From Trametes villosa (Eukaryota > Basidiomycota > Agaricomycetes > Polyporales > Polyporaceae): a DNA stretch of 64,000 bases. The position numbers and the translations under genes were made by a program. Where the stretch lies: contig PUDQ02000009.1 of assembly GCA_002964805.2 (NCBI GenBank), positions 124,001-188,000 of the forward strand. Direction: 5' to 3'. The notes beneath the pieces are model-generated. The model saw only the letters and a list, made by a program, of their open reading frames with translations. It had not been told where the DNA came from and did not search any database. Positions 28,901-53,562 of the stretch are shown here, in pieces. Every line of letters starts with the position of its first letter. Position 1 is the first letter of the stretch.

Positions 28901-30464
28901 GGTGAAAACAAGCGAACGAATCAGAGGGAAGTCGAGTGGGACAAACAACGATGGGCTTGAAGGATGGCACTCTCGTGCAGTGCCAAACTTATAGTCCCTG
29001 GTGTGCACTACCCTTGGTACAAAGAACGATGTCAGCCTAGAAAAACGCAGAGCGCGAGGTGTGCCACTCACTTATCTGCAGTGCACGTGTGCTGCAGCAT
29101 CCCACGGCTCTTTAATCTCCGAGGGTGTTAGGTCTAAAGTCTGTTCAGCCCTTCTCACCTTCCGGGCAGCATACGCAAACATGAGATCAGGTACATAGAG
29201 CGCCGGAATGATAGTTGTAAGGTCGCGGATTTGAGGTGTCATGGTAGATGACACCATGACTGTCCCTTCGAGAGATATGCTGACCTTGGAAAGACCTCGT
29301 ACCACAATATCGAAGGTTTATTGAATTCTAGCCAGTACTTAGCAAGTGGTAGAAAGTAAGTCGCCGCGATCTCGAGTGAGTGGCACAGAGCAGAGTGTCG
29401 CCGGGCGGCCCATGTGCCACACGGCAAACGCCGATCTTCCGTATATGGAATATCTCCACATCCAGATAGTTGGTGCCACTCCGTTGCGTGAGAGCGTTGC
29501 CACAGTGCCACTTGCATCAGCAAAGTGGGTATGAAGGATACAGACAGCGGTAAGACGCTATAGCCTAAGTAGTACGCTGTAGCATTCGTAGTCCACGATT
29601 GATTGCTGACGCGAGACCATGGGCTCTACTAGCTCAGCGTATCGGGTTCCAGGACGCTGCAAGAGGTGGCGCGACGGTCTGTAGCGGGAGACAGACTCTC
29701 GCGCCCGGTCTTGTCTCGCGCTGCAGCGCTGCGCATAGGTCGCTGTAGCGTTCTGACAGGCTCTGTATCGCGTCGCGCCAGCGATTGTAGCGAACCGTAA
29801 TCAATTGCTGGGGATACTATAGTACAACTCGGGTATTAGCGCAGATGCTGCATGCACAGGCGAGAGGTGCACGGCTCGGGCGCGAGGTGTGCGCCATGCA
29901 TGTGATGCAGAGAAATAATGCGATATATAGATTAAAATATTACATTGGGGCCCTCATATACTAGGCTATCACGTAGGTCAGGCGACGCAAAACCAGATTG
30001 TAGGTAGGCGAACTGGAGCGGGAGACCTGTGAAAGCACGAGATTAGCTTGATGTCTAGATGCCACAGTGTAGTAGACAAAGCGTAGGGACAGGACGCAGG
30101 GCGGGGATGAGAGCGAGATGAGCCGGCAAACGGAGCCGCTGTGCAATCTTGTGAGAGAGCCTCAGAGAGCGCATGGGGGGGCTAGTCTCACCTCGAGGAA
30201 GTGGCAGACTGGTGCCCGGCACCGTTCAGCAGTGGTCGGCTGAAAAGGAAAACCTGCGGGAACTGCCGGTCAGAGCCTCACCGGTCGACGGACGGCATAC
30301 AGCACTCACAGGGGCTGATCTGGTAGCGTTTCGAGACGATGGGGATGTTGGCGAGCCCAAATCCTGGACTAGTGATGTCAATATATGCGCATATATGCAT
30401 TCGAAACTCACCACTTGACGAGTCCCGGCCCTCCCTATGAGTCCATCAATAAAGTTCTGATTGT
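28901..30464. other. Intergenic stretch left of the transposon
   Basis: It contains a 77-codon minus frame (29072-29305) whose sequence (DLTTIIPALYVPDLMFAYAA, then TPSEIKEPW) looks protein-like but matches no family I can name. It also holds a stretch at about 29570-29810 with repeated CTGTAGCG, CTGCAG and CTGCAAG words, like the subterminal parts of the adjacent transposon. No confident gene. Confidence 0.4.
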
Positions 30465-30480
30465 ACATCAGCAAATAGGG
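30465..30480 (+). repeat. Left terminal inverted repeat of the transposon
   Basis: ACATCAGCAAATAGGG, the inverse of the right end at 38470-38485 with one mismatch. CTGCAG words at about 30490 and 30511 follow directly, and further TGCAG/TGCAA words occur at about 30663-30805. Confidence 0.65.
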
Positions 30481-31198
30481 GGTAGCGTCTGCAGCCGTCT
30501 GAATCGAGCTGCAGGATAGGTAGTTAGTTGTATCATTAGCAGTACACGGATTGGAATTCCATCTTATCCATGGACTCTACTAGGTTTGGGTAGAGTGATG
30601 GAGTGTGCTGGAGGACGTCGCGCGACACGCGCGAGCCGGCTATAGGAGCCCGCGCGGGATACTCAAACGGCCTGCAGCACGGCGCGCGAGGACTTGCAGC
30701 GCCTTGAAGCCCGATAGACCGCGCCGCGCGGGGTATTGCAAAAGCCTGGAGTACGCCCGCGGGGCCGATGCAAGGGACTAGAGCGTCCGGCGCGGAAGGC
30801 TGCAGTATACGAGAATGTCCTGGCTCTGGGATATAGGAAGGGGCACACCGCGATGCGCGACCGCGCGCGCGAAGAATTTGCGAGCAAAATACTCATATAT
30901 TAGTTGTTTCGAGACACTACAAAGGCTACTCTATGGCGAACGAGGCGGACCAGAGGCTGAGACACAGTTAGAGAGAAGCGAGGAGCCGGGAGACCAAGGG
31001 GGAGCCTGCTCGGACAGAGATGATCGAGCCAGACCAGAGAGCCAGACCAGAGACTGACGAGAGATCCAGGAGCAAGGAGCACGAGCACTTTAAGAGCCGC
31101 TGGCGACGAGGAAAAGGGCATGACCTGCGGAATAACATAGTCATCAGTACACATGTTCAAAGGCCAGTCCTGGCGCCACGCACCTGCTGCGCATGCGT

Positions 31199-33188
31199 TC
31201 ACTGAGACCCGTCCGGGCCCGCCTCAGCAGCGTAAAGAGGCTCGCATTCGCCCTGCTCGACGGGGCCGCTCTGGCTCTGAGTGCCGTCCGCCTCGCGCGC
31301 CGATGCGGAGTCCTCGGTCGCGTCCTCGTCCTCGCCGGCTGGGCTTGTCTTGGCACTGTCGGGCTGCTGCGGCCGCGCATCGGCCTCTTGCGTGGCGTTG
31401 GTCTGGGTTGCCACGGGTGGCAGAGCCTTGGCTGCCTTGCGCGCCTCGATCTCGGCGAGCACGAGGTCGAACGAGGACGGCTCGTCCTCCTCGTCAGACT
31501 CGTCGTCGTCGTCGTCGGCCGACCGCTCGAGCACGCGGCTGTAAAGACATGAGGGTACAAAGCAAATGAAAGATGAGCGTGTCGTGCTTACCGTGTGTAC
31601 CATCGCGTGAGCTCATCACGCCATTCGTGATCGCGCAGGCAAGCGGTCAACACGCTCTTGGTGAAATCCGATATATCGAAGTCGTAGTGATCGTCTTGCC
31701 ACTCGGCCTGCTCGTTGAGCACGAAGCGCATCTGCGGAAACAACTGGACATCAGTAGATTCACAGCGCAATGGCGGCAAACTCACCAGGGTTGCAACATA
31801 GACAATCGTCAGGATGTGAACCCCGTCGTCGTCCCACTCCATCTTGCTGGCGATAGGAGGCTTGCCGCGGTTTTTGGTGCACCCGTACGAGTCTGACGCC
31901 GACGACGGGCCAGTATAAATGAGCTGGAAGAACTGGTGATCCCGGGATGCTGTAGTCAGAGGACGAGGAATCAGAGGCGATGGAAGACTCACCCGGAGCA
32001 TTGCTTTGCTCTTGAGAAAGCCCGCAAACTGATTGCCGGGCTCGTACAGCTTCATGTCATACATAGCGAGCGGCCACTTCGCGCCCGTGACGCGCGTCCG
32101 GCCTCTCTTCTTGGTGCGGATTGCGCGGCAGAACCTATATGAGGATAATCAGTATCACTCCGGCCGGCGACGGGCTCATACCGCACTCTTCCGGGTCCTT
32201 GTCGAACCTCTCCAACAGCGTGACCGGGCAGAGTAAACGCGCGGTCTCAGGGTGCTTGAAACCACGGCTCGTCTTCTCCTTGAGCCCCTTGTTGTCAACA
32301 AACTCGAAGTATTCGAAGAATTTCTCCTTAACCCGGGTGAGGTCGTCGCTCCGGGCTTTGCCCGCGATGGTCTTCATCTGGTAAAGATCAGTCAGCAGAG
32401 TCCTGATGCAAGGCACAGGGCGTACCCATCCGGCCAGATTGGTGACCAGATCGGGCGCTCGGCGCAAGTATGGGACGTTGTCGGCAATTGCTGGGATGAG
32501 GGCCTTGATGCGGTCGAAGTAGATCCTAACTTGCCAGTATTCGTCCCAGACCCTAGATCACAGAGAACAGGTGAGTATATGCGCATACAAGGACAAGGTA
32601 CATACGGGTTTGTGAGCTCCGGATCGTCGTCGCGATACTTGCCATCACGCGCGAGACCTTTTGGCAAAACAATCTTGTACAACACGTCGTCGCCTAAGTT
32701 GCGCGCCAGGAGGCGTGCGAGCTGATGTAGGGCTTCTACGCCATTTTCTATGCGAATAGCCTGGCTATATGCGGTGTCAGTACCGACGGGCACGCATATA
32801 TGCTGACTTACGTTGGGCTAATAAGAATAAGCTGAAGCCGGTTCACGCCTTCGGGATCGTAGGAGAGCACCGTCCCGCTAGGGTCTTCAGTGTCGGCTGG
32901 TTCGGGCTCGGGTGTTGCCTCGCGCGCGTGGTGTTTTGACTTCTTCTTCTTCTTCGGCGCCGGCTCCTCGACCTCTTCACCCGAAGAGGATTCTTCCATG
33001 AGTATGCTGCGCTTGCCTTTCGTTGTGGTCGACGTCTGTTTGGCAGGCTTGACCGGGGCTTTGGCGGGCTGGGCGCGTGGCAGAGTCGAGAGGCGAGCAG
33101 GCGAGGAGGAAGGAGGAGTGTGTAGAGGAGCCGCCTTGGCCTGCGCCTTGGCGGCGACTCGCTTCAAGCTGGAAAAAGCGTTGGTCAT
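31199..33188 (-). CDS. DUF6698 protein, putative transposon accessory factor
   Basis: The gene runs from the ATG at 33188 (MTNAFSSLKRVAAKAQAKAA) through about seven exons to a TGA at 31199. A basic, low-complexity N-terminus with a PKKKKKSKHH nuclear-localisation-like run is followed by the DUF6698 core. Recognisable blocks are KARSDDLTRVKEKFFEYF, GFKHPETARLLCPVTLLERF, a KWPLAMYDMKLYEPGN block matching the family's W-P-x-F-L-Y region, GFLKSKAMLR, HILTIVYVATLMRFVL, and EWRDELTRWY at the end of the domain. A Ser/Asp/Glu-rich acidic tail closes the protein. The function of DUF6698 is unknown. Here the gene sits inside a transposon, head-to-head with the transposase, so a DNA-binding or transposase-partner role is the natural inference. 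No stop or frameshift is seen in the exons. Confidence 0.82.
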
Positions 33189-33445
33189 GTTGAAGGGATG
33201 GTAGTGGTAAGGGAGGAAGAAAGGAAATGGGGAGAACCGGGGAAGAGCGAGTTTTATAGCGACAGAAGAGTGCGGCGGGACAGACTGAATGCGGTCACGT
33301 GGGAGATATCTCTGGCGGACGCGACGCGACGCGACGCGTCCTGGCGCGTCATATGGGCGCTTAGTACTCCGTGCTTTTCGCTCTCACACCTCACGCGGCC
33401 GTCCCATCTCTCTCTCTCCCTCATCCACCCTCGCCGCATACAGCC
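33189..33445. promoter_or_regulatory. Bidirectional promoter region inside the transposon
   Basis: These 257 bases separate the divergent starts of the DUF6698 and transposase genes. A TTTATAG motif at about 33252 faces the minus-strand gene. A CT-rich run (TCTCTCTCTCCCTC) just before the plus-strand ATG is typical of basidiomycete transcription starts. A GACGC direct repeat (GACGCGACGCGACGCGACGCG) occurs at about 33319-33339. Shared control would keep the two proteins at matched levels; this is inference. Confidence 0.5.
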
Positions 33446-36400
33446 ATGGAAAAATGCACGGCCTCCGGATGCAAGTTCAAGGGAGCCGGAAAACGCGGGC
33501 TCGCTATCCATGAAGCTAGCTGCAAGTTTCTCCTCCCGGACATAGCCAAAACTCTACAGAAGCGGGTACTCGAGGACGCCGAGGAAGAACGAGCGCGTAA
33601 GGTTGCCCGGCTACAGGTTACAGAGGAAGAGCCAGACGATGTGAGCTCTCTGACCCAATTACATGATATATTCTAACGCATATAGCCAGGTCCTCCCGCT
33701 GCCCGCTCCCCTAAGCACCCCGCCGCCGGCTCCTCGTACGCGCTCGGGCAGGCCCGTCCGCGTCCCAAAACGGCTTGTCGACTACATTCCTTCGACTAAG
33801 GACGACATGCCCACTCATCTTGCGGAGGCCTTCCCCGACCCGCCGACACAACCTCCGTCTCGATACGTCTCCCCCACGGTCGAGGACGCGCCCGACGAGG
33901 ACTCCGGCGAGGTCTTTCAGACCGAGCCCAACTCGTTCGGTGTTTACCGGGAGTACACCGTTGCGCCACAGCGGGATCCTGAGGCGAACGTCTCTCTGGG
34001 CTCTCTATGCGATGCGCCGACACTCGAGAAGGCCGATCATCTTGCCGACAACCCAGAACTACGGTACTCAAGCATATACTGGCTCACGCGGAACACCGAG
34101 ACCGGTGAAGCCGCAAACACAGCGATCGGGCCCTTCGACAACAAGACTCAGTTCCGCATCACTGACTGGCAGCACAACGCGTCGATTACAAAGTCTATGG
34201 AGGATTTTGACGACCTAATCGACGTCATTAGGTCCGAGGGATTCTCGCCCGAGGAGTTGGCCGGCTTCAGCGCTCACGTCGCCGCGAAGAAGCTCGACGA
34301 ATATAGGCCGCCGAAGGGCATCTTCTCGGCAGAGGATGGCTGGATGGAGAGCTCGGTTGATATACCCCTGCCGAAGGCCAGAAAGAGGTACAGCTCCGAG
34401 GAAGCGGCGCCTACGTTCACAGTTGGCAGCATCCATCACCGGAGCCTCACCGCCGTCGTTCGGGGAGCCGCACAGGACTCCCGCTTTGCCGAGCAAATGA
34501 ACTGGTTCCCTAACATGATGTTCTGGAACCCGCCGCCCTCATCTCGCACTCGCGCCTCCCCAGACTCCCGGCCATCCTCCCCGAGCAACACAGAGCGCAT
34601 TCGTATCATCACAGACTCCTACAACTCGAACCGAATGCTCCGGGAGTTCGCAAGGCTTCGCGCGCAGCCACGCCGCCCTGGAGACGGACCAGACGTGGAG
34701 TACGTTATCGCCAACATCCTCCTATGGTCGGACGCCACCCATCTCACGAGCTTCGGATCGGCCTCCCTCTGGCCGATCTACCTCTACTTCGGAAACCTAT
34801 CAAAGTACGTCCGGGGGATGCCCACCGAATTCGCCGCCCATCACTTGGCGTACATTCCCTCAGTATGTCATTTTGCTTATGCGCCCGTGCCTGTTTGCTG
34901 ATGGTCTTCCCGCAGCTCCCCGACGAACTCAAAGACCGGTACCGGGATGTACACGGCTCCTCGCCATCGGCGGACGTCCTGACCTTTTGCAAGCGCGAGC
35001 TGATGCAACGCATCTGGCTGCTCCTGCTGGACGACGAGTTTATGGATGCGTACGAGAATGGCATCCTGGTAACATGCGGCGACGGTGTGACTCGGCGGAT
35101 TTTCCCCCGGATTTCAACATATTCGGCGGACTACCCCGAAAAGTTGGTTCCTCGATGATGTATCTCATCAGTTTCTGATCGTTGCTGACTACCTGCTTCC
35201 GCACTCCCAGGATCCTCCTCGCTGGCCTGAAGCCACTCTCCAGTCACCCTTGCCCCCGCTGCCTCATCCACCACGACGACATCTGCGAGACCGGCACGCC
35301 TGAAGATGCAGTACGACGGTCGGAAAAGCGCGTCGACACGCCCAGGGTACAGCGCGACATATTACGAGCTCGCAAGCTGATATTCGAGAAGGGCGCTGCC
35401 CTCGGAAGCAAGAAGGTCCAGAGGTACCTGGAGTCGCGCTCGCTCAATCCAATACAGGTGTGTTAAATCGCTCGTAACACGTCTAGTAAGCTGACGGTGT
35501 GCTACAGGCCGCCTTTTCGACACGCTTCTCGCGTTTTGGGGAGAATTTTTATGAGCTCTTCGTCCCCGACCTCATGCACGAGTTTGAGCTCGGCGTGTGG
35601 AAGGGGACGTTCATACACCTCGTCCGTCTCCTCGCTGCGCAGGGCGAGGACGTTGTGCAGGAGTTCAACCGGCGGTGCGTTATATTCCTGCGGCCACACT
35701 CCGCCCAGCTGACTGATGTGCGCCTCCAGCATGCGTCTCATGCCCTCATTCGGACGCGACAAGGTCCGCAAGTTCTGGAGCGACGTCACAGCGCGTAAGC
35801 AACTGGCGGCGCGCGACTATGAAGATTTCCTGATTGTAAGTCTTAACCGTTTGCCGCCGTCTCATCCGCAACAAACTCTAACCCGTCGAGTAGTGCATCA
35901 TACCGGCTTTCGAGGGCCTCCTTCCTCTGGGCGACAACGAGACGGTCCTCGACCTCTTGTTCGAGCTAGCCAACTGGCACGCCCTGGCGAAGCTTCGCCT
36001 CCACACAGAGGTGACGATCGACATCTTCCGCGCGGCAACCTCGCACATGACGGAGGCTGTGCGCACCTTCGCGGATACCACCTGCACTCGCTACGAGACG
36101 CGAGAGCTCGAGAAGGAGGCCGAGGCCCGTGTCCGCCGCGAAGAGAAGAACGTCGGCGGCCCCGCGCCAAACCGTGACCGTAAAGTGGTCCGTTACAACG
36201 TACCTTACACCGTCAAGTTTCACTTCACCGCCGACTACCCCGACGCGATCCTGGAGACCGGCACGACTGACAACGGCAACACGCAAGTCGTAAGTCCAGT
36301 CCGGTGTTCGTAAACAGGCACATCACTGACACATGCACAGGGCGAGCTCGAGCACCGCCATGTCAAGCGCTTGTATGCGCGAACAAACAAGATTCGCTTC

Positions 36401-38128
36401 GCATGTCAGATCACGAAGCTCCACCGCCGCGCGGCCATGCTACGCGCGATGCGGGAGCTTGACGACTACACGCCCCGGCGCATCCGTCTGCGCAAGGCTA
36501 AGAAGGCACGCGCCGCCGCTGCATCACGCGGTGCTGAAGCGGCTGCCGAGGCCGGTGGACACGACACCGACAACCGCCCCGATGCTTCGCTCGCCCCGAC
36601 ACACCCTCTCGACCATTATGCCATCTCGGACAGTCGCCGCCTTCCCATCCGCCTCCACAACTGGCTGAGGCAGCACGACTCGGATCCAGCCGCTGAGGTG
36701 AGCGCCATCCACATGTATCGATGAAACTTACTAACTGGGTACTAGGACTTTATCCCCGGGCTTCACGAGCACTTGCTCAGTCGATTTGTGGACCCGACGG
36801 AGCCGGACGGCCAGTACAGCGCGCGGCAGCTGGATGGCATTGAGATCGAGAACGACCGCCTCTACCGACACAAGGTCTTGCGGGTCAACTACACGACCTA
36901 CGACATGCGCCGCGACCAGGATACGGTCAATCCTCGGACCCACGCGGACGTCATGATGCTGGCCCCCGACACAGACCCCCATCAATTTCTCTACGCGCAC
37001 GTCATCGACATCTTCCACGCGCGTGTGCGCTATACCGGGCCTGGCGCAACACGAGCAACGCGCAAGTTCCAGCGTGTAGATTTCCTCTGGGTTCGATGGT
37101 TCGAACTCGACGAGGACCACCGCGACGGGTTTCAAGAGCGCCGTCTCCCGCGGCTGCGTTTCACAGACGGCACGGACGCCGACTACCCCGCGTTCGGCTT
37201 CGTCGACCCCAACGACGTTCTCCGCGCGGCCTACATACTTCCGGCCTTCGACCACGGGACGACCAACAAGCTCTTGCCGCCCTCGAAACTGGCAAGGCGG
37301 GCGTCCGACAACGACGAGGACTACACATTGTATTATGTGGGCATGTAAGTAGGTTCAACCACGGTACAAGCCTATACTAACCCATCGATTACCAGCTTCG
37401 CTGACCGCGATATGTACATGCGGTACCTAGGCGGGGGTGTTGGCCACCGCGAGAACGGCGTCGACCTCGAAACCTCGAAAGAGCACGCTGTGCGCTGGAA
37501 ACAGGCGGGCGGGTACTATCCCAGGGAGCCCGAGTCCTCGCCTTCACAGTCCAGTGACTCCGACGACTCGGACTCGGACTCCAGTCCGCCTCCGCGCGCA
37601 AACTCGGCGCACAGCACCCTTCAGCCCAGCCCTCCGCGAGTTCGCCCGACAAGTCCGCGCTCCCGGGTCTCTTCATTGGCACCGCGCGACACAGACAACG
37701 AGAATCGACGATCGGCACCTTCGCGCTCCCGGGGGGCGGTCGCTCCGCAGACCCGGAACCGTACCAAGCGCGCCGCCGAGGACGAGAGCTCCGGATTGGC
37801 CGCGCTCGACGAGCTCGAGCCAACGGAAGACGAGCTCGACGAGGAAGAGCTCGACGAGGAAGAGCTCGACGAGGACGACTACGCCGAGGGCGCCGACTAC
37901 GCCGAAGACGACGAGTATGCCGCAGATGACGACGGGGCGGACGGCGAGTTGGACGTCGGAGAGGAGGACGAGTGGGGGGAGGAACTGGACGATGCACTCG
38001 CCTCGGGCGAGGAGGTCACTGACGGCATCGAGCACGCCGCGAGCGTGGCTGAGGGGGAGGAGTGGGAGCTGGATCCCGACGAGTTCTACGATCCCGTGTT
38101 CGCAGCACAGGGCTTCGCCCGTTTGTGA
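33446..38128 (+). CDS. Plavaka/KDZ-like DDE transposase, intact
   Basis: Ten exons join in frame to exactly 1400 codons: 33446-33640, 33690-34862, 34916-35142, 35211-35457, 35508-35674, 35730-35835, 35894-36289, 36341-36697, 36746-37344 and 37396-38128. The N-terminus has a Cys/His knuckle (MEKCTASGCKFKGAGKRGLA, then IHEASC), as in other fungal KDZ-type transposases. The catalytic core shows SDATHLTSFGSASLWPIYLY, LAYIPSLPDEL, TCGDGVTRRIF, CPRCLIHHDD and VPDLMHEFELGVWKGTFIHL, matching the Plavaka consensus blocks that carry the acidic catalytic residues. A large C-terminal extension has a basic patch (RIRLRKAKKARAAAA) and an acidic repeat tail (DEEELDEEELDEDD). No disabling mutation was found, so the element may be young or the gene still in use. 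The family call rests on pattern recall of Plavaka proteins and needs a profile search. Confidence 0.86.
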
Positions 38129-38469
38129 ATAAACATGTTCGAGCGGTGCCTTCGGGGCGTGCAGCGCTAGGTCGGGCAGAGGGAGCTCGGGGCGCACGCT
38201 GCTCGCCTGGGATACACATGTATATTGCATCGCTATAGAGTACACTACTGACTTCATGCAGTACCCTACAGGCATGACTATCCCGCGTTGAAGAACTGCA
38301 GCCTCCGCCTCCGGCGATGAACACTTACAATGCTTTCGCGCGGCCTGCAGGACCGCCACTGAGGAACTGCAAGGGGCTCTCGCGAGTTGCAAGACGGCCG
38401 TAGCGGGCGACGAGCGCCTGCAATCCGCTGCCACCTCCATCTCGCACTGGAGTAGGCTCCATCAAAATT

Positions 38470-38485
38470 CCCTTTTTGCTGATGT
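38470..38485 (-). repeat. Right terminal inverted repeat of the transposon
   Basis: Plus-strand CCCTTTTTGCTGATGT, the inverse of the left end. Inside it, between about 38290 and 38440, lie spaced TGCAG/TGCAA words (38297, 38346, 38366, 38388, 38419) in the orientation opposite to those at the left end. Confidence 0.65.
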
Positions 38486-39129
38486 AGTGGGTTTCTGAGC
38501 GCACTAGTATTGGACCTGAGAGGCAAAGAGACCAAGCTGCAGTCCCATGTAGGGGTAGAGCGTCGGGACTCGGGATTGTAACGAAGAAGCGAGATGGTGG
38601 TGTGAGGAGAGAAGGGGTATGCCCCTTGACGAGCAGGGCGGAGGGTATTTATAGGGAAGTCGTTCTCCAGCGAGTGCTGGGAAGCGTAGAGTATGACAGG
38701 TTTCTCAATTGCAAGCGAGCTGGCGCGATATGCGGCCAAGTGAAGGACTTGGTTGTCTGAAATGACGTCATACGTCAGAACAAGCCCCTCGATTCTCTGC
38801 CGTCGAAGGGTCTTCGATCGAGCAGCCTTCGGGGTCTCGTATCGGGCACGCACGCTCATATGTGCCCCGCGGCGAATGAACATGGCCTGCATACCCTTGC
38901 ACCAACGATTATCGATTAATGTTCGCCGCGGCCGATTGAGGGGTTCGCGCAACGTTGAAGTGGGAGTCACGCAGGAAGCATGGTAAGCTTTCGCCCGAGT
39001 GTTCAATGAATTATAAGTTACGCAGACGCAGTGTCTTATAACCTGGGCTATCCGAGCGTCGTGAGCGGCCTATGCATTACAACGAGCTAGAGAGGTAAGG
39101 TATCGTAGGATGAACGCCTACAGGCTACG

Positions 39130-39265
39130 TAGCATGCGGTTTGAGACTGCAAAGGACTGTAACGGCTTTCAGTACGTCCGCCGCAGACGACGAGCGTCTG
39201 TATCGCGCTGTCTCCTTCATATCGCGCTGTAGCGCGCTAGCTCCGATTTCCCCTTTTGCTGATGT
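39130..39265 (-). repeat. Second copy of the transposon right end (solo end or MITE)
   Basis: Bases 39250-39265 read CCCCTTTTGCTGATGT, the same terminal word as at 38470-38485. The 120 bases before it parallel the transposon's right subterminal DNA: CGACGAGCGTCTGTATCGCGCTG here against CGACGAGCGCCTGCAATCCGCTG there, and a shared block around CTCCTTCATATCGC. No coding part is attached. It ends 111 bases before the ATG of the kinase gene, so it forms part of that promoter. Confidence 0.6.
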
Positions 39266-39376
39266 GCTTACGCCCATCATCTCGCTCTCGAACCTTGGAT
39301 GCGACCTCTCACAGCCTCGCGCGCTGTCTGTTTCTCCCACCTGAGTTCGTAAGGCGTGCCTGACTTGCAGTCAGCG

Positions 39377-40999
39377 ATGTTGCACACCATTGGTTGCCGA
39401 CGGCAAATCCATGCTGGGGTTGCCCCACGCCTCTCGACACGCATTATACCGGGCCGGTATAGCTCAGCTTCTGGAAGGCGGGTGTCTCGTCTATACTCCT
39501 CGCAGTCCTCGGAGAACTGGGATGCGGAGGAGCCTTTAGGTGGCTATGGTACTACGGCTACATCCAGTGGTTATCTACCTGTGGGGATCGGGGACACTTT
39601 AGGGTCCCATTACAGGACGGTGAGAAAACTAGGGTGGGGCGTGTACTCTACCGTGTGGATTGCCGAAGATACTCAGTAGGTTATTGTATAACGTATGATG
39701 GGCTATGTCGTACACTGACCCTATTCACGCTACTAACTTGAAGGTCGAAGTCCGACAAACAGATAACGTATTCTGCTCTCAAAATCCTCAGCAGTACGTT
39801 CCACCAGGGGCCCTTAGGAACTCAACGTCTAACATCGTTGTAGGGATGGCAACGGACGCCCAAGACAAACTCCAAGAGCTCCAGTACATGCAACGAATGC
39901 GAGAGCAGTCTCCTGGTCACCCCGGCTACTCGTATGTCATCCAACTACGAGATCACTTCTACAAGCAAGGGCCGCATGGACGGCATCTCTGTCTCGTTAT
40001 GGAGCCGCTGCTCCAGGACCTCCGCTCCCTTACGCAACGCTTCCGGGATCGGCTGGCACCCCCATATTTTGTTCGACGCGTCGCCCGTCAAATAGTCTTG
40101 GGTCTCCAATACCTCCATGACGAGTGCAACATCGTACACACGGACCTCAAACTGGGGAATATCATGATGGTGCCGCCCGGGGACCCCGCCGCGTTCCTTG
40201 CGATGACCCTACCGAAGCTCCAGGAAACCGAGACTTGCATCGTGATCGGGCCCGACGGGACTCCCATCCCTCGCGTGCACAGTCGGCCGCTACCATACCC
40301 TCTCCCAGACCATTACGACATGTACTCCTTCGACGCATGGGGTGGCGTACAGGTCAAGATTGGTGACGTCGGCGTCGGTATGTTCTCACCTCGATTCTCC
40401 CCAGTTCGGCGCATCTCAGCGTTCCTTCCATCTCCAGCTTGTTGGGCAGACAGGGCCGCAGAGCACTCCGCCGACCTGATACAAGCCCCATCAGTACGCG
40501 CGCCGGAGGTGGCGGTTGGAGCGGGATGGGGCCAACCCGCCGACGTTTGGAGTCTTGGCTGCATGGTACGTGGGGTAGATTCGGATCCATTGCACGCCTG
40601 GTTGACGCAGGCTTCTCAGCTGTACGAGCTCTACATGGGAGAGCCGCTTTTCCGGACCCACGTTGACGACGATTCGGTGCCAACTCTACACATCCTCGCG
40701 GTCGGCGAGTATCCACGCGACCTGATCGCGCGGGGCAGGCGCCGGGACGCGTTCTTCAACGCCGACAGTGAGTACACGCATGCCTATGCACGCTGTTGCC
40801 ATACTGACATTCTTCGCGTGCTTTAGACTCTCTCAAGCGCTCTCCGGGGCGAACGATTCCGTACGACAGCGCCATCCGCGAGCGAGATGCGCCCGACGCC
40901 GCGCTTTTCGCAGACTTTCTCCGGCACATCCTGGTGCTCGAGCCCGACGCGCGCGCGAGCTGCCGGGACCTGTTGACGCACCCGTGGCTCAACCCGTGA
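39377..40999 (+). CDS. SRPK-like serine/threonine protein kinase
   Basis: From the ATG at 39377 the gene has an N-terminal Arg/Ser-rich leader that could be a mitochondrial presequence. The kinase domain follows: YRTVRKLGWGVYSTVWIAED (glycine loop), ALKIL with the ATP-binding Lys, HTDLKLGNIMM (the HTD form of the catalytic loop typical of SRPKs), IGDVGV joined to ACWAD, VRAPEVAVGAGWGQPADVWS with LGCM, and the end LLTHPWLNP. The long insert between the catalytic loop and DVG is the SRPK spacer, short here. DVG replaces the usual DLG/DFG but keeps the metal-binding Asp. Introns fall at about 39679-39743, 39793-39844 (donor GTACGT, branch CTAAC), 40380-40438, 40565-40618 and 40770-40826. These kinases phosphorylate SR-type splicing factors in other fungi; many Agaricomycete paralogues have no known substrate. 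Confidence 0.85.
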
Positions 41000-47694: not shown

Positions 47695-50600
47695 TTACAA
47701 AGGATCTGCTTCAAACAGGGGCATAACCGAGTCCGAGTGAAACTGGGCGAGGAGACTGCGTTTCTTGAGCTTCGCCTCCTCGTCTTCCACCACTTCAGCC
47801 TCCAGCCCGTCGTCTTCGCGCTTCCGCTGTAGCTCGTCGCGGCGCGCTGAGCGCTCGAGGCTTGCCTTCACAGAGCGCTGGACGTCATCAAGGTGTACCA
47901 GTCCGCGGGGTGCCGCCCTCGCGGAGACCGCGCCGACGATGTACTCGAATGTCTTGAGAACGTCGCGCCTGTCGTTGGAAGGCTTCTCGTCCGTGGCGGG
48001 CTTCGCCTCTCCTTCCGCCGCCCGCGCTTTGGCCTCCATCTTCTCAGCGAACGCCTCGAGCGCAGTCGCGAGCTTCGTCCCCTTCCGCAACCGACCGCTG
48101 CCTTCGAGGCGCGCAATGGTCTCCTTCAGCAGCGCCACGTCCGCCTTGGACGGCTTCCGAATCTCCTTACGGTTCCACTCGTACTCGTAGATGCTCTCCT
48201 CGAGCTCGTCCACACGCGGCGCGTCGTACGCGACGTCGTACTGCGTCTCGCGCTGCAGCCACGTCTGCGTCGCGATCTCCAGCGGGGTGTTCCCGACGCC
48301 GTCTTCGAGGTGGAGCACCTCCGCGGGGCCGGCGTCGCCGACGAGGCGCGCGATCTCCGAGAGGCCTTCTTTGACTGCGACGTGCAGGGGCGTTGAACCG
48401 GACTTGTCGCGCAGTGCGAAGACGGAGGTCACGAACGGGAGGAGCAGCCGCACCGCAGGGAGGCTCTTCCGCTTGACAGCGAGGTGTAGAGGCTAGCGTA
48501 GGATCGTTCAGCGCGCGAGCCCGGGCGCGCGGAGAGCAAGACTTACGGTGTTGAGCGCGCCTTTCGATTGTTGCAAGAGCATGCGAGCTGTGACATCTTT
48601 GGGTAATTTCTGCAGGACGTGCTTGAGGAGCTTCAAATGGCTCCCAGACTCGTCGGTCAGGTCGCGGGCGCAAAGAAGATGGTACACGTTCCAACTGAGA
48701 TCATGATATGTGAGCGCAAGTAGAGGTAGCCTTGTTCGAGCAACTCACCCGCGCACGTCCGTCTCTGTGGGCGAGACACCGTTGGACAGCAGGTAGTCGA
48801 ACAGTTCCGGAGAGCATCCCCAGTTTGCGCCCACCAGAATGTGATTGAAGCCGACGAAGTGGATGCTAGGCCATCCGTTCTTTAGTCTCAACAACACACA
48901 ACTCCCTGAGAGTGCACTCACCGAGCCGTCAGCGCACTCTGCATCTCGACCGGGCGGAGCGCTACCACCTCCTTCACCGCGTCAAGGTGCCCGCCAATGA
49001 CGGCCGCAGTGACCGCAGACTCGTTCAGCTCGTTGCTGCTCCAGCCCAGTCTTCCGGCAATCTGGCCCTTGATGCGGCGCAGGTACATCGCCTTCTCATC
49101 GCTATGGGTCGAGGCGTAGTACTCGTACGCAGCGAGCGGGCGGTCCGACGCGAGGTACCGCATGACGCCCACCGCATTAGCCTGCGCGGCGGTCCACAAC
49201 AGCGGAATATCAGAGGTCTTCGTAGTTCCAGGCGCGTTCGGGTCGACCTTCTCCGCGAGATCCTTGCGCTTCTTGCCGTGCACGTTGAGGCCTAGGTATG
49301 CCTTGCTCGAGGACTGCGTCGACTGCCATCGAGGGGCGTCACTATCTTCGTGCTCGTCATGCGACTCCGGAAGCTCGATCCCAGCACCCGTGCGACGGAT
49401 GAGCTCCTCTAGCATGGCTGGCCGGTCGAAGTTGCAGACCCACTTGAGAGCGTCGGCGGGGAGGTCGACTGGCTTAGGGAGGGATTTGTAGAGATCGGCA
49501 ATCTGCACGAAAGCCTCGAAGTCGTCGTCAAGGACGGCCTTGAATAAAGGCGGCCCCGAGTGCCACTTGTCGTCTTTGGCGTGGTATACCAAGTCAGCTA
49601 GCTCAAGCAGCTTCTCGGGCGGAACTTCAGTGTGCACTTCCGATGGCCGGCGGGCGATGTCGACGAAGTTGATCTCGGGCTGCGAGTCCGAATCCTCGTC
49701 ACTCCCGCATCCCGAGTCTGAGTCCGAGTCGTCGATCTCTATAGCTGGTGTGAGGAATATCCGCAGTATTCGCAGATATAAGCTTACCCAGCACCACACT
49801 CTTAGCGATGAACTTGGACTTCTTGTCGTCCTTGGGTTTGTACTGAGCAGCGGCGATGGCAAGAACGAGGCGAGCGGTATCCCATTGGCGGTTGTTCAGC
49901 GCCATGGAAAGCGGGGTAAGCCCTGTTGGCAGAAAGCAGCCACCACGTCAGAGGAGCTGAAGAGGCGAAGCTTTGACACGCACCTTGGTTGTTCAGGAAA
50001 GTGCAAGTGATCAGCAGGACTTTTGCATCGGACTTGCCCTTCCCCTCGCTTGGGAGGCAGAGCGCCTGGATCTTCGCCGTGTCGCCGACACGGCACGCCT
50101 CGAAGAGGTCGTTGTACGCGCCCGTCATATGAGTAGGGATCTCCTCCGACGACCTAGTCCCCGACATCTTGTAGTACGCGACGGCAGCGGAATAGCGCGG
50201 AATGCCATACACACCGCTCCGCCCGAAGTTCGTGTTCACCTGGGTGTCAGGCCCGAAGAGTTCCTTCGCCGACTTCGCGCCATGCGAGACGAGGATCTCC
50301 TCCGCCTCTCGGAAGTACGCGATCGCGGCAAGGTACTTCTCGCGCTTCTCCCCGCACTCCTTGACATCACGCTCGTACGATGTGAGTTGCTCTGACCACT
50401 TGAGCAGCTCCTCCGCATGGGCGCCCTGCCATCCGGGGACAGCGGCGACTTCGCGGAACCGGATTCGTTCTGCGCGCTCGTCCGCTCTGGTAGCGTAGCC
50501 ATCTGCTTCGCTCTGGAGGGCGGGGACAATTGCGCGGACGTAGTCGAGGACGGTCATGTGAGAGTTGTCCCGGTTGCCGATGGCCGTCTTGATGTCGACG

Positions 50601-53562
50601 TTGTACTCCGCACCGATGTCGACGAGCAGGTCTACGACGTGGTCCAGAGATGCGAGGGAGACCTCAACGGGGAAGTACACCTCCCCTCTCCAGTCTTTGT
50701 TCGCGCTCTGCCAAGAGTGCCTAGCCCTGTGTGACATTAACAATCGGTTAGCTGTACGACATAACGAAGGAGAAGCGACATACTTGCGTTCGCGCGCACG
50801 ACTGTAATCCTCCTGATCAAGCACGTACTTCGCTCCATACGCAAGGAGAACTGCAGCGGTCGCGTGGTCTCCCTTCGCAATAGCAGACACGATGGGGAAC
50901 AACGCCTCCAAGCGGTACGTCACCATGTGCGGAGAGTCGAGGACCGCTCTCGCGTTCGGGTCGTGCTCCAGGAGCGTTTCGGTGAGTGCGGGCCGCTTTG
51001 CGCAGACGATCTTGTGGAGAATAGTGAACAGGTTGTCGTCCGCCTCGGAGGATACTGCGCCCTTGGCAATCAGCTTCTTCGCAGCCTCGCATGCAACTGC
51101 GATGTCGCGCGTTATGGCGGTCACCGTGAGCGGATGGAGCGCTTGTGCGTGATAGCGACCAGCCTTGGTGACGAGGCTGGCGTCGGCCCCAGCGGCGAGC
51201 AGCTCGTCCATGGCGGAGAGTGACCCGAACGCGACGGCGTAGTGGAGGGGGGTCAACGCGTAGTCCCAGTCGGGGAGGTTGACGTCGAAGACGTCCGGAA
51301 CGTCATTCTCGTCCTCCGGGATCTGGTCGGCGTCGGGGCTCTGCGTCGCGTCTTTCCCCTTTTTGGGTTCGCCATCCTCCGAGGACCAGTCGTCCTCGCT
51401 GCTGTCGTGCTCTTCCTCGTCCTCGTCATCGCCTTCCTCGGCTTCTTCGGCGTCCTTGTCGTTGGTGCTTACCGCGTCTTTCGCCGCCTGCGCAGCCGCT
51501 TCCTCCTCCTTGGCCTTCTCTGCGTTCACTGCACTTCGCTCGAGCAGCTTTCGTACAACCACGGGTAGATCAAGCTGTGCAGCAAGATGCAGTGCGGTAC
51601 GTCCGTCAACCAGGCGAGCGGTCATCCGCGCCCCCGCCTCGATCAGGTCGCACGCAATCTCTGACTGCCTAGAGAGGATGGCAACTTGCAGAGGGGTACG
51701 ACCGACATGGTCGCGGCGGTCGACGTCTGTACCTTCGTCGGCGATAGCCTTGGCGAGCGTGGCGCGGTCCCCGGCGACAATGGCGTTGAACAGCTTCTCG
51801 GTGGGGCCGATGTATGCCTGCCCAGCCCATTCGCCCTCGTCGATCGGGTGGAAGCTGCCCGAGATGCTCTGGCGCCCGGGGTTCTCTTCGATGAACCTGG
51901 CAAAGTATGAGGAGCGAGTAACACGTCGTCGTCAATGGGACTTACTGCACGCGACCGCGGACGTAGGACTCGTCCTCCGTCTCTTGCAGTTGCTTCTCTT
52001 CCTCGTCCTTAGGCTCGGGACAACACTGCAAGGGCTATGAGAAGGCTACGCGCATCGGCAAGGTGAGCGCATACCTCGCAACAGTCCTCCAGGCATTCAG
52101 ACATCGTCCCAAAGAAAGCCGGGTGGCGATGAAGGCGCCGTCCCTTGTTCTTTGGGTTGTACGGAGCTGCATGACACTTCAGCGCTACGTCTATGGAAGC
52201 AGGGTGCGATTCCACACTTACAGTTCATGCCCAGGTCCTGCCCAATACCATCAGTATCCGAGTTTGCAGTTCAGGAGAACGCACTCACTGTTTGGTAAAC
52301 CAACTTATCGATCCGCCGCGCATCCCACCCAGGACCGTACGGAATGTGGAGGGACTGCACGTCGTAATCGTTCATCTCCAACCCTCCGAGGTCGATGTTG
52401 GCCTTCAAGTCGCCCTTCATCTGCTTTCGACGGCGGCGGCTCCACTCATCTTGCGCAGGAGGGCGGCTTCGAAGGCTACGGCGGTCTGAGAGGTAACGTA
52501 TCTTGGAGTCCGGATCTGCGAGGCGCTCGAGTACGAGCAGGCGCGCCAGACCTTGAACTCGCACGATGGACCGTTCGTAGATCTGCATGTAGAGACCAGC
52601 CGTGAGTGGAGACCGGCCTTGAGCAGGATGAGACTCACGGTAGGGTCAATATCGTCCCTGCGCAGATTGGGGACCTCAACCTCGAATCCGCGAGCGGAAT
52701 ACTTCGCAAGCCGCACTTCGTACGAAGGCGAGCGGCGCGTCATGTCCACAGTATTACACTGCCGCATCATCGCCACGATCGCGCGCGGGTTTGCCCACAC
52801 CCGTTCGCCGTCGTACAGGCAACACGGCGCGTCGACGTCAAACCCAGCCAGGATCTCCGCCGGGGACGAGTAGAGGCGCAGCACGATCTGCACCGAGCGG
52901 TACGGGTACTGCGAGTGGATGGACACGGTGTGCTTCGTGCGGATGCACGTCACGTCCCAGGGCACGGAGTCGCGCACGGCCTCGTAGATCGCCTGCATCT
53001 TCGCCTCGGCCTGCGCGGGCGTGAGGCCGTACAGGAAGAGGTCGACGTCCGAGGTCGGGAACATGTTGCCATGAAAGTACTTGCGCATCGCGCGCTTGGA
53101 GGTCTTCGCAGAGTCCGGCACGGGCAGGAGGCACGCTTGCACGGAACCTCCGGCGACGACGACGTTGCTCCAGTCGGTAAGCTGCGAGAGGGAGCCTTCG
53201 GAGAATATCGCCCAGTTCTTCTTGAACTCCTCCATGCTCGACACAATCGCGGGGTCGCCCTCCTTGCGACGTTGCTTGTCGGACAAGGGGAAAATGTAGC
53301 GCGCAGAGAGGTCATCTTCGCCTCCGACGATCCTGGCGCGCGTTCGCCGAATATCGTCGGGCGCGTCGAACACATCCACTAAGCCCACATAAGGGTCCTG
53401 TAGACGTGGATTGCTCTTGTCTGTGGCGAAGAGCTTGCGAAGCTCTGCTTCATCGTGTAGAGACGGCTGAAGTGCCTTGACGAGAGCGTAGTCGTGTCCG
53501 GGGCCGCCAGGTAGCTGCCCCACACGAGCGAGAAATGCTTGAGCTTCCGGGTTCTGCGGCAT
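47695..53562 (-). CDS. Giant nucleotidyltransferase-like/ankyrin-repeat protein
   Basis: One gene appears to run from the ATG at 53562 (MPQNPEAQAFLARVGQLPGG) to a TAA at 47695 through about ten introns, giving well over 1600 residues. Residues about 125-185 contain NVVVAGGSVQACLLP followed by PTSDVDLFLYGL. This is a G-G-S then D-x-D arrangement like the catalytic motif of the nucleotidyltransferase fold, though with wider spacing than usual. Conserved segments such as SVPWDVTCIRTKHTVSIHSQ and MMRQCNTVDMTRRSPSYEVR follow. The middle and C-terminal parts hold ankyrin repeats: VGRTPLQVAILSRQSEIACD, DGRTALHLAAQLDLPVVVRK, YALTPLHYAVAFGSLSAMDE, NTPLHLAVKRKSLPAVRLLL and SGSTPLHVAVKEGLSEIARL. Between repeats are acidic and helical linkers. 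No signal peptide or membrane helix is seen. Similar proteins exist in many fungi as far as I recall, without assigned function. Two adjacent genes cannot be excluded, but the exons connect without a convincing internal stop and promoter. Confidence 0.8.

Follow-up and report, generated by a model that had tools for sequence, protein, structure and literature searches.

The window, a 64,000-nucleotide stretch of the Trametes villosa genome (C9:124001-188000 in this 46.7-Mb fungal assembly), holds an 8,019-bp element of two genes (30466-38484) that we read as a complete and probably autonomous DNA transposon, of the superfamily Plavaka and with termini of the PlavakaB type. One gene encodes a transposase; the other encodes a protein of the DUF6698 family (PF20414), entered in Pfam as a family of unknown function and here tied to a transposon lineage. 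That DUF6698 belongs to the element is well supported. As to what it does there, we give a probability of roughly 0.6 to the reading that it is an element-encoded partner of the transposase, which would work like TnpA of the CACTA elements.

The element has inverted ends CATCAGCAAAWAGGG and is flanked on both sides by a TA target duplication. In the window TACATCAGCAAATAGGG occupies 30464-30480, and 38470-38486 holds its reverse complement but for one mismatch. In the original prediction, made by reading the DNA, this was a 16-base inverted pair with 15 of 16 bases identical: the ends are real, while the length is not, since the TA had wrongly been included. The true ends are 15 bp each and 14/15 identical (CATCAGCAAATAGGG versus inverted CATCAGCAAAAAGGG). 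The outer TA is a target-site duplication and not part of the repeat because other copies have other dinucleotides in its place: in eight of the ten copies for which both flanks are known (the window's two-gene element and the outer element that surrounds it included) the two dinucleotides are equal, namely TA, TG, AG, CT, AA, TG, TC and GA. The end pattern CATCAGCAAANNGGG has 46 matches in the genome versus 0 for its reversed control; the looser CATCAGCAAANNNG has 109 (100 of these places listed) versus 13. One more terminal-repeat match, CATCAGCAAACAGG, lies on the minus strand at 34890-34903, within intron 2 of the transposase gene.

Both genes, spliced by hand at predicted sites, read without an internal stop, and their start codons are 257 bp apart, just as had been proposed for two intact genes diverging from a 257-bp spacer. 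The predicted donors include unusual ones, GTTGGT in the transposase and GTGCGG in DUF6698; a splice aligner fed the DUF6698 protein gives back the identical one, no more than a check of consistency. Pfam confirms both of the domains that the original prediction had named and reports no further one: the transposase matches PF18759 (E 1.8e-27, 96.9 bits, cut-off 26.3) and its partner PF20414 (E 3.1e-48, 164.6 bits, cut-off 23.7). The transposase scores far below the best Plavaka copies of the genome, 96.9 bits for the whole protein against as much as 322 bits for single exons. Its D528, CPRC (C546-P-R-C549), H638 and E839 align with eight high-scoring Plavaka open reading frames of the same genome, and D413 aligns with the seven of these that extend to it; relative to all eight it carries several extra segments. 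At its N-terminus a CCHC zinc-finger-like pattern (C4, C9, H22, C26) can be read by eye. The predicted basic patches and acidic tails are there as well: residues 1301-1399 of the transposase have a net charge of -45, and DUF6698 has KKKKK at residue 79 and a net charge of -23 over its last 140 residues.

PlavakaB, described from Agaricomycotina (Kojima 2025, PMC12730594), is defined in the text of that paper by CATCA..TGATG termini and a 2- or 3-bp duplication. The window element shares with it a transposase of the Plavaka family (PF18759), the CATCA..TGATG termini and a 2-bp duplication (TA), and its termini and duplication match that definition. PlavakaB transposases are also described as having DDE residues together with the motifs C(2)C and H(3-4)H; of these motifs CPRC and H638 align, and no second H can be made out at the required distance in the window copy.

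How general is the pairing of the two genes? A search of the genome with the PF20414 profile gave 51 exon matches, which fall into 20 loci. A transposase of the element's own lineage lies within 6 kb of 15 of them (0.13 expected), head-to-head with DUF6698 in 14 of the 15; counted from the other side, DUF6698 is near 15 of at least 18 own-lineage transposase clusters. Of the other Plavaka clusters (at least 47) and the KDZ clusters (at least 72), not one comes within 6 kb of a DUF6698 locus. These cluster counts are lower bounds, since a search of the genome gives scores to its top candidates alone (the best 38 of 106 for the own lineage, the best 123 of 138 for Plavaka). Three own-lineage clusters have no DUF6698 nearby: that of C12, C3:3180k, which is a short fragment, and C3:3947k, a copy with a match only from residue 120 onwards. 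Convergent CATCAGCAAA ends enclose eight of the 20 loci, or nine if one end with one mismatch is counted, with a transposase inside each, and at 11/20 loci the DUF6698 side has a correctly oriented end no more than 2.5 kb away (about 0.12 expected). End-to-end spans are 7.6-8.1 kb, the exception being C14 (19.4 kb, its transposase interrupted). The C23 copy, which has AG at either flank, shows 96.9% identity along the 3.4 kb of its DUF6698 side and 91% along 1.5 kb on the side of the transposase.

The proposal that DUF6698 is a protein of a mobile element and not of the host thus holds in this genome: DUF6698 genes are usually linked to transposases there, and the inverted ends do flank other copies. 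The accompanying description of the element as "KDZ-like" has to be dropped. The KDZ elements (Kyakuja, Dileera, Zisupton) are likewise DNA transposons of fungi and frequently bring an additional gene with them, but no KDZ domain is reported for the window element, PF18758 being without a match in either protein at E up to 10. Together with the absence of DUF6698 loci near KDZ clusters, this leads us to reject a KDZ relationship.

DUF6698 copies are under purifying selection. The ratio of nonsynonymous to synonymous divergence (dN/dS) was computed for 12 pairs of coding sequences and is 0.08-0.24 in the seven with usable divergence, that is, neither near-identical nor beyond dS 1.2; of the other pairs one is identical, one has two changes (0.31) and three are at or beyond dS 1.27 (0.32, 0.55 and one saturated and undefined). 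The two proteins have also diverged together: across 11 loci, identity to the window transposase and identity to the window DUF6698 have a Spearman correlation of 0.97. (This comparison pairs C12 across 21 kb and leaves out C95, C49:212k and C16:365k, which have no N-terminal transposase match, and C33, which has no DUF6698 letters.) Co-divergence shows inheritance as one unit and is no proof of contact. In a 30-row tree of DUF6698, which has four subfamilies, Trametes and Pilatotrama proteins are intermingled with the paralogues from this genome, and the family must therefore be old; some deep joins of this tree are on long branches, and of the four joins one, that of P0003/P0007 with C10/C12, is below the support mark. 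Among the matches listed in protein searches, DUF6698 proteins come from Trametes species and Pilatotrama only, with no genomic context given. Because of linkage, ends and selection, DUF6698 as a host gene is rejected.

The spacer between the genes holds a conserved module: GTCACGTG at 33294 and, from 33318, GACGCGACGCGACGCGACGCGT..GCGCGTCA. Defined as a CACGTG that has two or more GACGCG (or CGCGTC) within 90 bp, the module is present in 12 of the 13 head-to-head spacers that were read, the fourteenth being that of C33. The sole spacer without it, C9:60k, has TCACGTGA, and its letters stop about 80 bases later. The six DUF6698 loci without a head-to-head transposase have no module, nor does a 224.5-kb background, whose pieces around other Plavaka copies may stop short of their promoters; one extra match lies directly outside the C3 element. 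The pattern GTCACGTGN{0,30}GACGCGACGCG has seven sites in the genome, six at the 5' side of own-lineage transposases (that of C12 included) and one, C77:370837-370857, that does not adjoin such a gene; the array with its right-hand GCGTCA has six, five of them in two-gene elements and one at C109; the reversed controls have none. A 102-base query from the spacer finds five places in the genome, all in two-gene elements of the own lineage. (A scan of the spacer for bacterial promoters and terminators, which is not made for fungi, found nothing.) The module is kept even where the DUF6698 proteins of two elements share no more than about 20% identity, and this points to host factors.

CACGTG is the E-box, bound by basic helix-loop-helix (bHLH) factors. 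The other part of the module has a literature of its own: ACGCGT is the MBF site, or MluI cell-cycle box, of G1/S transcription (as presented in PMC4862756); in another polypore, Ganoderma lucidum, binding of Swi6B to an ACGCGT element was tested by one-hybrid assay and is reported in the text of PMC12285235; and sections of PMC5137879 describe the motif as enriched at replication genes in Cryptococcus. Cell-cycle control of the element is accordingly a prediction.

The precedent for a second transposition protein is En/Spm, which needs two element proteins: the transposase TnpD, and TnpA, a binder of subterminal repeats that is not similar in sequence to its counterpart in Tam1 (both points as given in PMC2613891). 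In PMC12730594 Kojima assigns Plavaka and EnSpm alike to the CMCT clade. Like En/Spm, the window element combines a DDE transposase with a second element-encoded protein and has small non-autonomous relatives; the likeness in subterminal repeats is partial and confined to the window element's subfamily. Unlike the CACTA/EnSpm elements, it ends in CATCA and not CACTA, duplicates 2 bp and not 3, and has separate divergent genes where those elements make alternative transcripts from a single gene. Nothing pointed to homology between DUF6698 and TnpA, no search having been aimed at it. DUF6698 is likened to TnpA because it is the usual neighbour of one transposase lineage, shares its promoter, is conserved and has a basic N-terminal patch.

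The scheme that we favour can be put as follows. The DDE transposase with its CCHC zinc-finger-like N-terminus would be the first component. DUF6698 would be the second, a helical nuclear protein acting with the transposase at the ends of the element as TnpA does beside TnpD; its partnership with the transposase at the protein level, its nuclear location and its DNA binding are what we infer. The divergent promoter would fire both genes together by way of the E-box GTCACGTG and the ACGCG array, sites that most likely tie expression to a host G1/S factor of the MBF/APSES type and to a bHLH factor. The identity of these host factors, the co-expression of the two genes and a current activity of the element are put forward as expectations. 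Both proteins would mobilise the element and probably also its 1.5-1.85-kb non-autonomous relatives with similar ends. A more far-reaching version, to which we give less than even odds, has DUF6698 as a new structural class of partner that defines a two-component Plavaka lineage, with co-expression timed by the host through G1/S (ACGCG, MBF-type) and E-box sites and transposition following S phase.

If DUF6698 acts at the element's ends, are there sites for it? Six CTGCAG sites lie in the 1.09 kb that make up the element's ends beyond the genes, where about 0.7 would be expected, and the 6.93-kb interior has none (about 1.9 expected). Other elements in which the site stands out are the near copy of C23, C3 (29k) on its transposase side, and small ones of C19 and C10; in divergent relatives it does not. 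As a pointer to binding, this clustering would be weak evidence. A family-wide subterminal motif is rejected: CTGCAG stands out nowhere but in the own subfamily and some small elements.

Several observations speak against the favoured scheme. The ends of three divergent elements, C49, C95 and C16:364k, are without CTGCAG repeats, and an unbiased test for repeated 6-mers gives P <= 0.05 in only four of 13 ends, with top words other than CTGCAG; a family-wide binding site is for these reasons not supported. No DNA-binding fold or PDB relative of DUF6698 was found by Foldseek, VIA-align or profile search: the predicted structure is helical and without a recognised fold, two models compared with the PDB by Foldseek, and both also by VIA-align, gave no usable match, the first model gave none against BFVD, and the profile search of PDB sequences returned a single match at E 0.67. 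The co-divergence of the two proteins is also expected from simple co-inheritance, and the linkage evidence comes from one genome. Flanking dinucleotides differ in two of the ten copies (C3:29188, C1:5443361). At C3:2546k (C3:2546432-2552207), a divergent relative, both genes are on the same strand. Five of the 20 DUF6698 loci (C12, C49:96k, C1:4706k, C10:3409k, C95:5.5k) have no own-lineage transposase within 6 kb; at C12 there is one 21 kb away on the same contig, on the opposed strand and with another Plavaka between.

What else might DUF6698 do? It might be an anti-silencing factor that protects chromatin or strips silencing marks, as is proposed of TET/JBP in other fungal DNA transposons, with no part in cutting and joining. 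According to the text of PMC12730594 some PlavakaB families of other fungi carry TET/JBP as their second gene, where the window element has DUF6698. Pfam reports no Tet_JBP match in the element's two proteins at E up to 10, and DUF6698 could therefore fill that slot (a search of the genome with PF12851 gave no match, and since the control genomes likewise gave none, absence is not demonstrated). Such a role would account equally well for the linkage, the purifying selection and the shared promoter. TET/JBP genes, however, have moved among many transposon superfamilies (same text), whereas DUF6698 is near neither the other Plavaka nor the KDZ clusters; its tight co-divergence with one transposase lineage better suits a specific partner, and no enzymatic domain was found in it. 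We regard anti-silencing as unlikely. Somewhat less probable again is a self-regulator that would bind the shared promoter or the ends and limit the expression or activity of the transposase, a form of copy-number control. The tandem GACGC array of the divergent promoter does resemble an operator, and TNPA of Spm/En, according to PMC2613891, also regulates its own element; persistence of the module at about 20% DUF6698 identity is nevertheless more what one would expect of a slowly evolving host factor than of an element repressor that co-evolves with its sites.

One can also think of DUF6698 as a passenger, or a captured host gene, riding in the element. The four loci other than C12 at which no own-lineage transposase was found nearby would suit this idea. 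Yet C95:5.5k, identical to the C95:11k copy across 178 codons, has an element end of its own within 2.5 kb, and C1:4706k and C10:3409k are partial copies, near-identical to each other. The pairing, moreover, spans elements with DUF6698 down to about 20% identity, selection on the gene is purifying, and the genome's paralogues interleave in the tree with Trametes and Pilatotrama proteins; we give the passenger reading hardly any credence. The transposase partner remains the reading that we prefer.

The features of the element and its surroundings are collected in the table.

Table. Coordinates in the window of the two-gene element, its parts and the element that surrounds it
Feature	Position	Strand	Basis
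Outer non-autonomous element, CATCAGCAAA ends, ~1.73 kb without insert	29515..39264	.	End search, flanks, relatives
Left target-site duplication TA	30464..30465	.	Dinucleotide varies among copies, usually same on both flanks
Left terminal inverted repeat CATCAGCAAATAGGG, DUF6698 side	30466..30480	+	Genome end-pattern search, copy comparison
Left subterminal region, four CTGCAG (30489, 30509, 30672, 30800)	30489..30805	.	0.38 expected in left end
DUF6698 gene, 8 exons, 540 amino acids, PF20414 at residues 226-430	31199..33188	-	Hand splicing, Pfam E 3.1e-48
Divergent promoter between start codons, 257 bp	33189..33445	.	Gene models
Conserved promoter module: GTCACGTG, GACGC tandem array with ACGCGT, GCGCGTCA	33294..33351	+	Spacer comparison, genome pattern searches
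Plavaka transposase gene, 10 exons, 1,399 amino acids	33446..38128	+	Hand splicing, Pfam E 1.8e-27, motif alignment
Right subterminal region, two CTGCAG (38296, 38345)	38296..38350	.	Site count
Right terminal inverted repeat CATCAGCAAAAAGGG, transposase side	38470..38484	-	Genome end-pattern search, copy comparison
Right target-site duplication TA	38485..38486	.	Flank comparison

The outer element, which has a TG duplication of its own (29513-29514 and 39265-39266), is split by the two-gene element into halves at 29515-30465 and 38485-39264. Without the insert it aligns across the insertion point with two relatives, L087 (C41) and L090 (C55), at 66-67% identity, the alignment being ragged just there; the two-gene element therefore landed in a non-autonomous one whose ends resemble its own, and for that site these relatives provide an approximate, paralogous empty site only. 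Elsewhere in the genome convergent end pairs that hold neither gene number eight at 1.5-1.85 kb and one at 14.6 kb. A protein-kinase open reading frame (Pkinase 2.1e-16) at window positions 39699-40823 directly adjoins the outer element, and a 709-amino-acid open frame with ankyrin repeats lies on the minus strand at 49805-51931. Outside the window, the DUF6698 gene at C49:96006-96816 has diverged so far that it shares about 26% identity with the window copy; no own-lineage transposase was found nearby, and a correctly oriented terminal-repeat match lies 7 kb away (C49:103759). It is possibly a domesticated or decayed copy.

No published account of DUF6698 was found in the literature searched. 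The passages covered of PMC12730594 mention neither DUF6698 nor the promoter module; a second gene of this kind is likewise absent from them and from the passages covered of PMC8290104 and PMC9674265, and a search for two-gene or cell-cycle-timed fungal transposons had nothing on point among the matches listed. Two-gene transposons of the CMCT type are already known; the DUF6698 partner and its promoter are, as far as was searched, new.

A domain of unknown function thereby becomes a testable component of a transposon, with exact ends, a partner and a promoter, and it is predicted that many genes annotated as DUF6698 in the genomes of mushrooms belong to transposons. Across a large divergence of its own proteins, down to about 20% identity for DUF6698, a DNA transposon appears to have retained a host cell-cycle promoter module.

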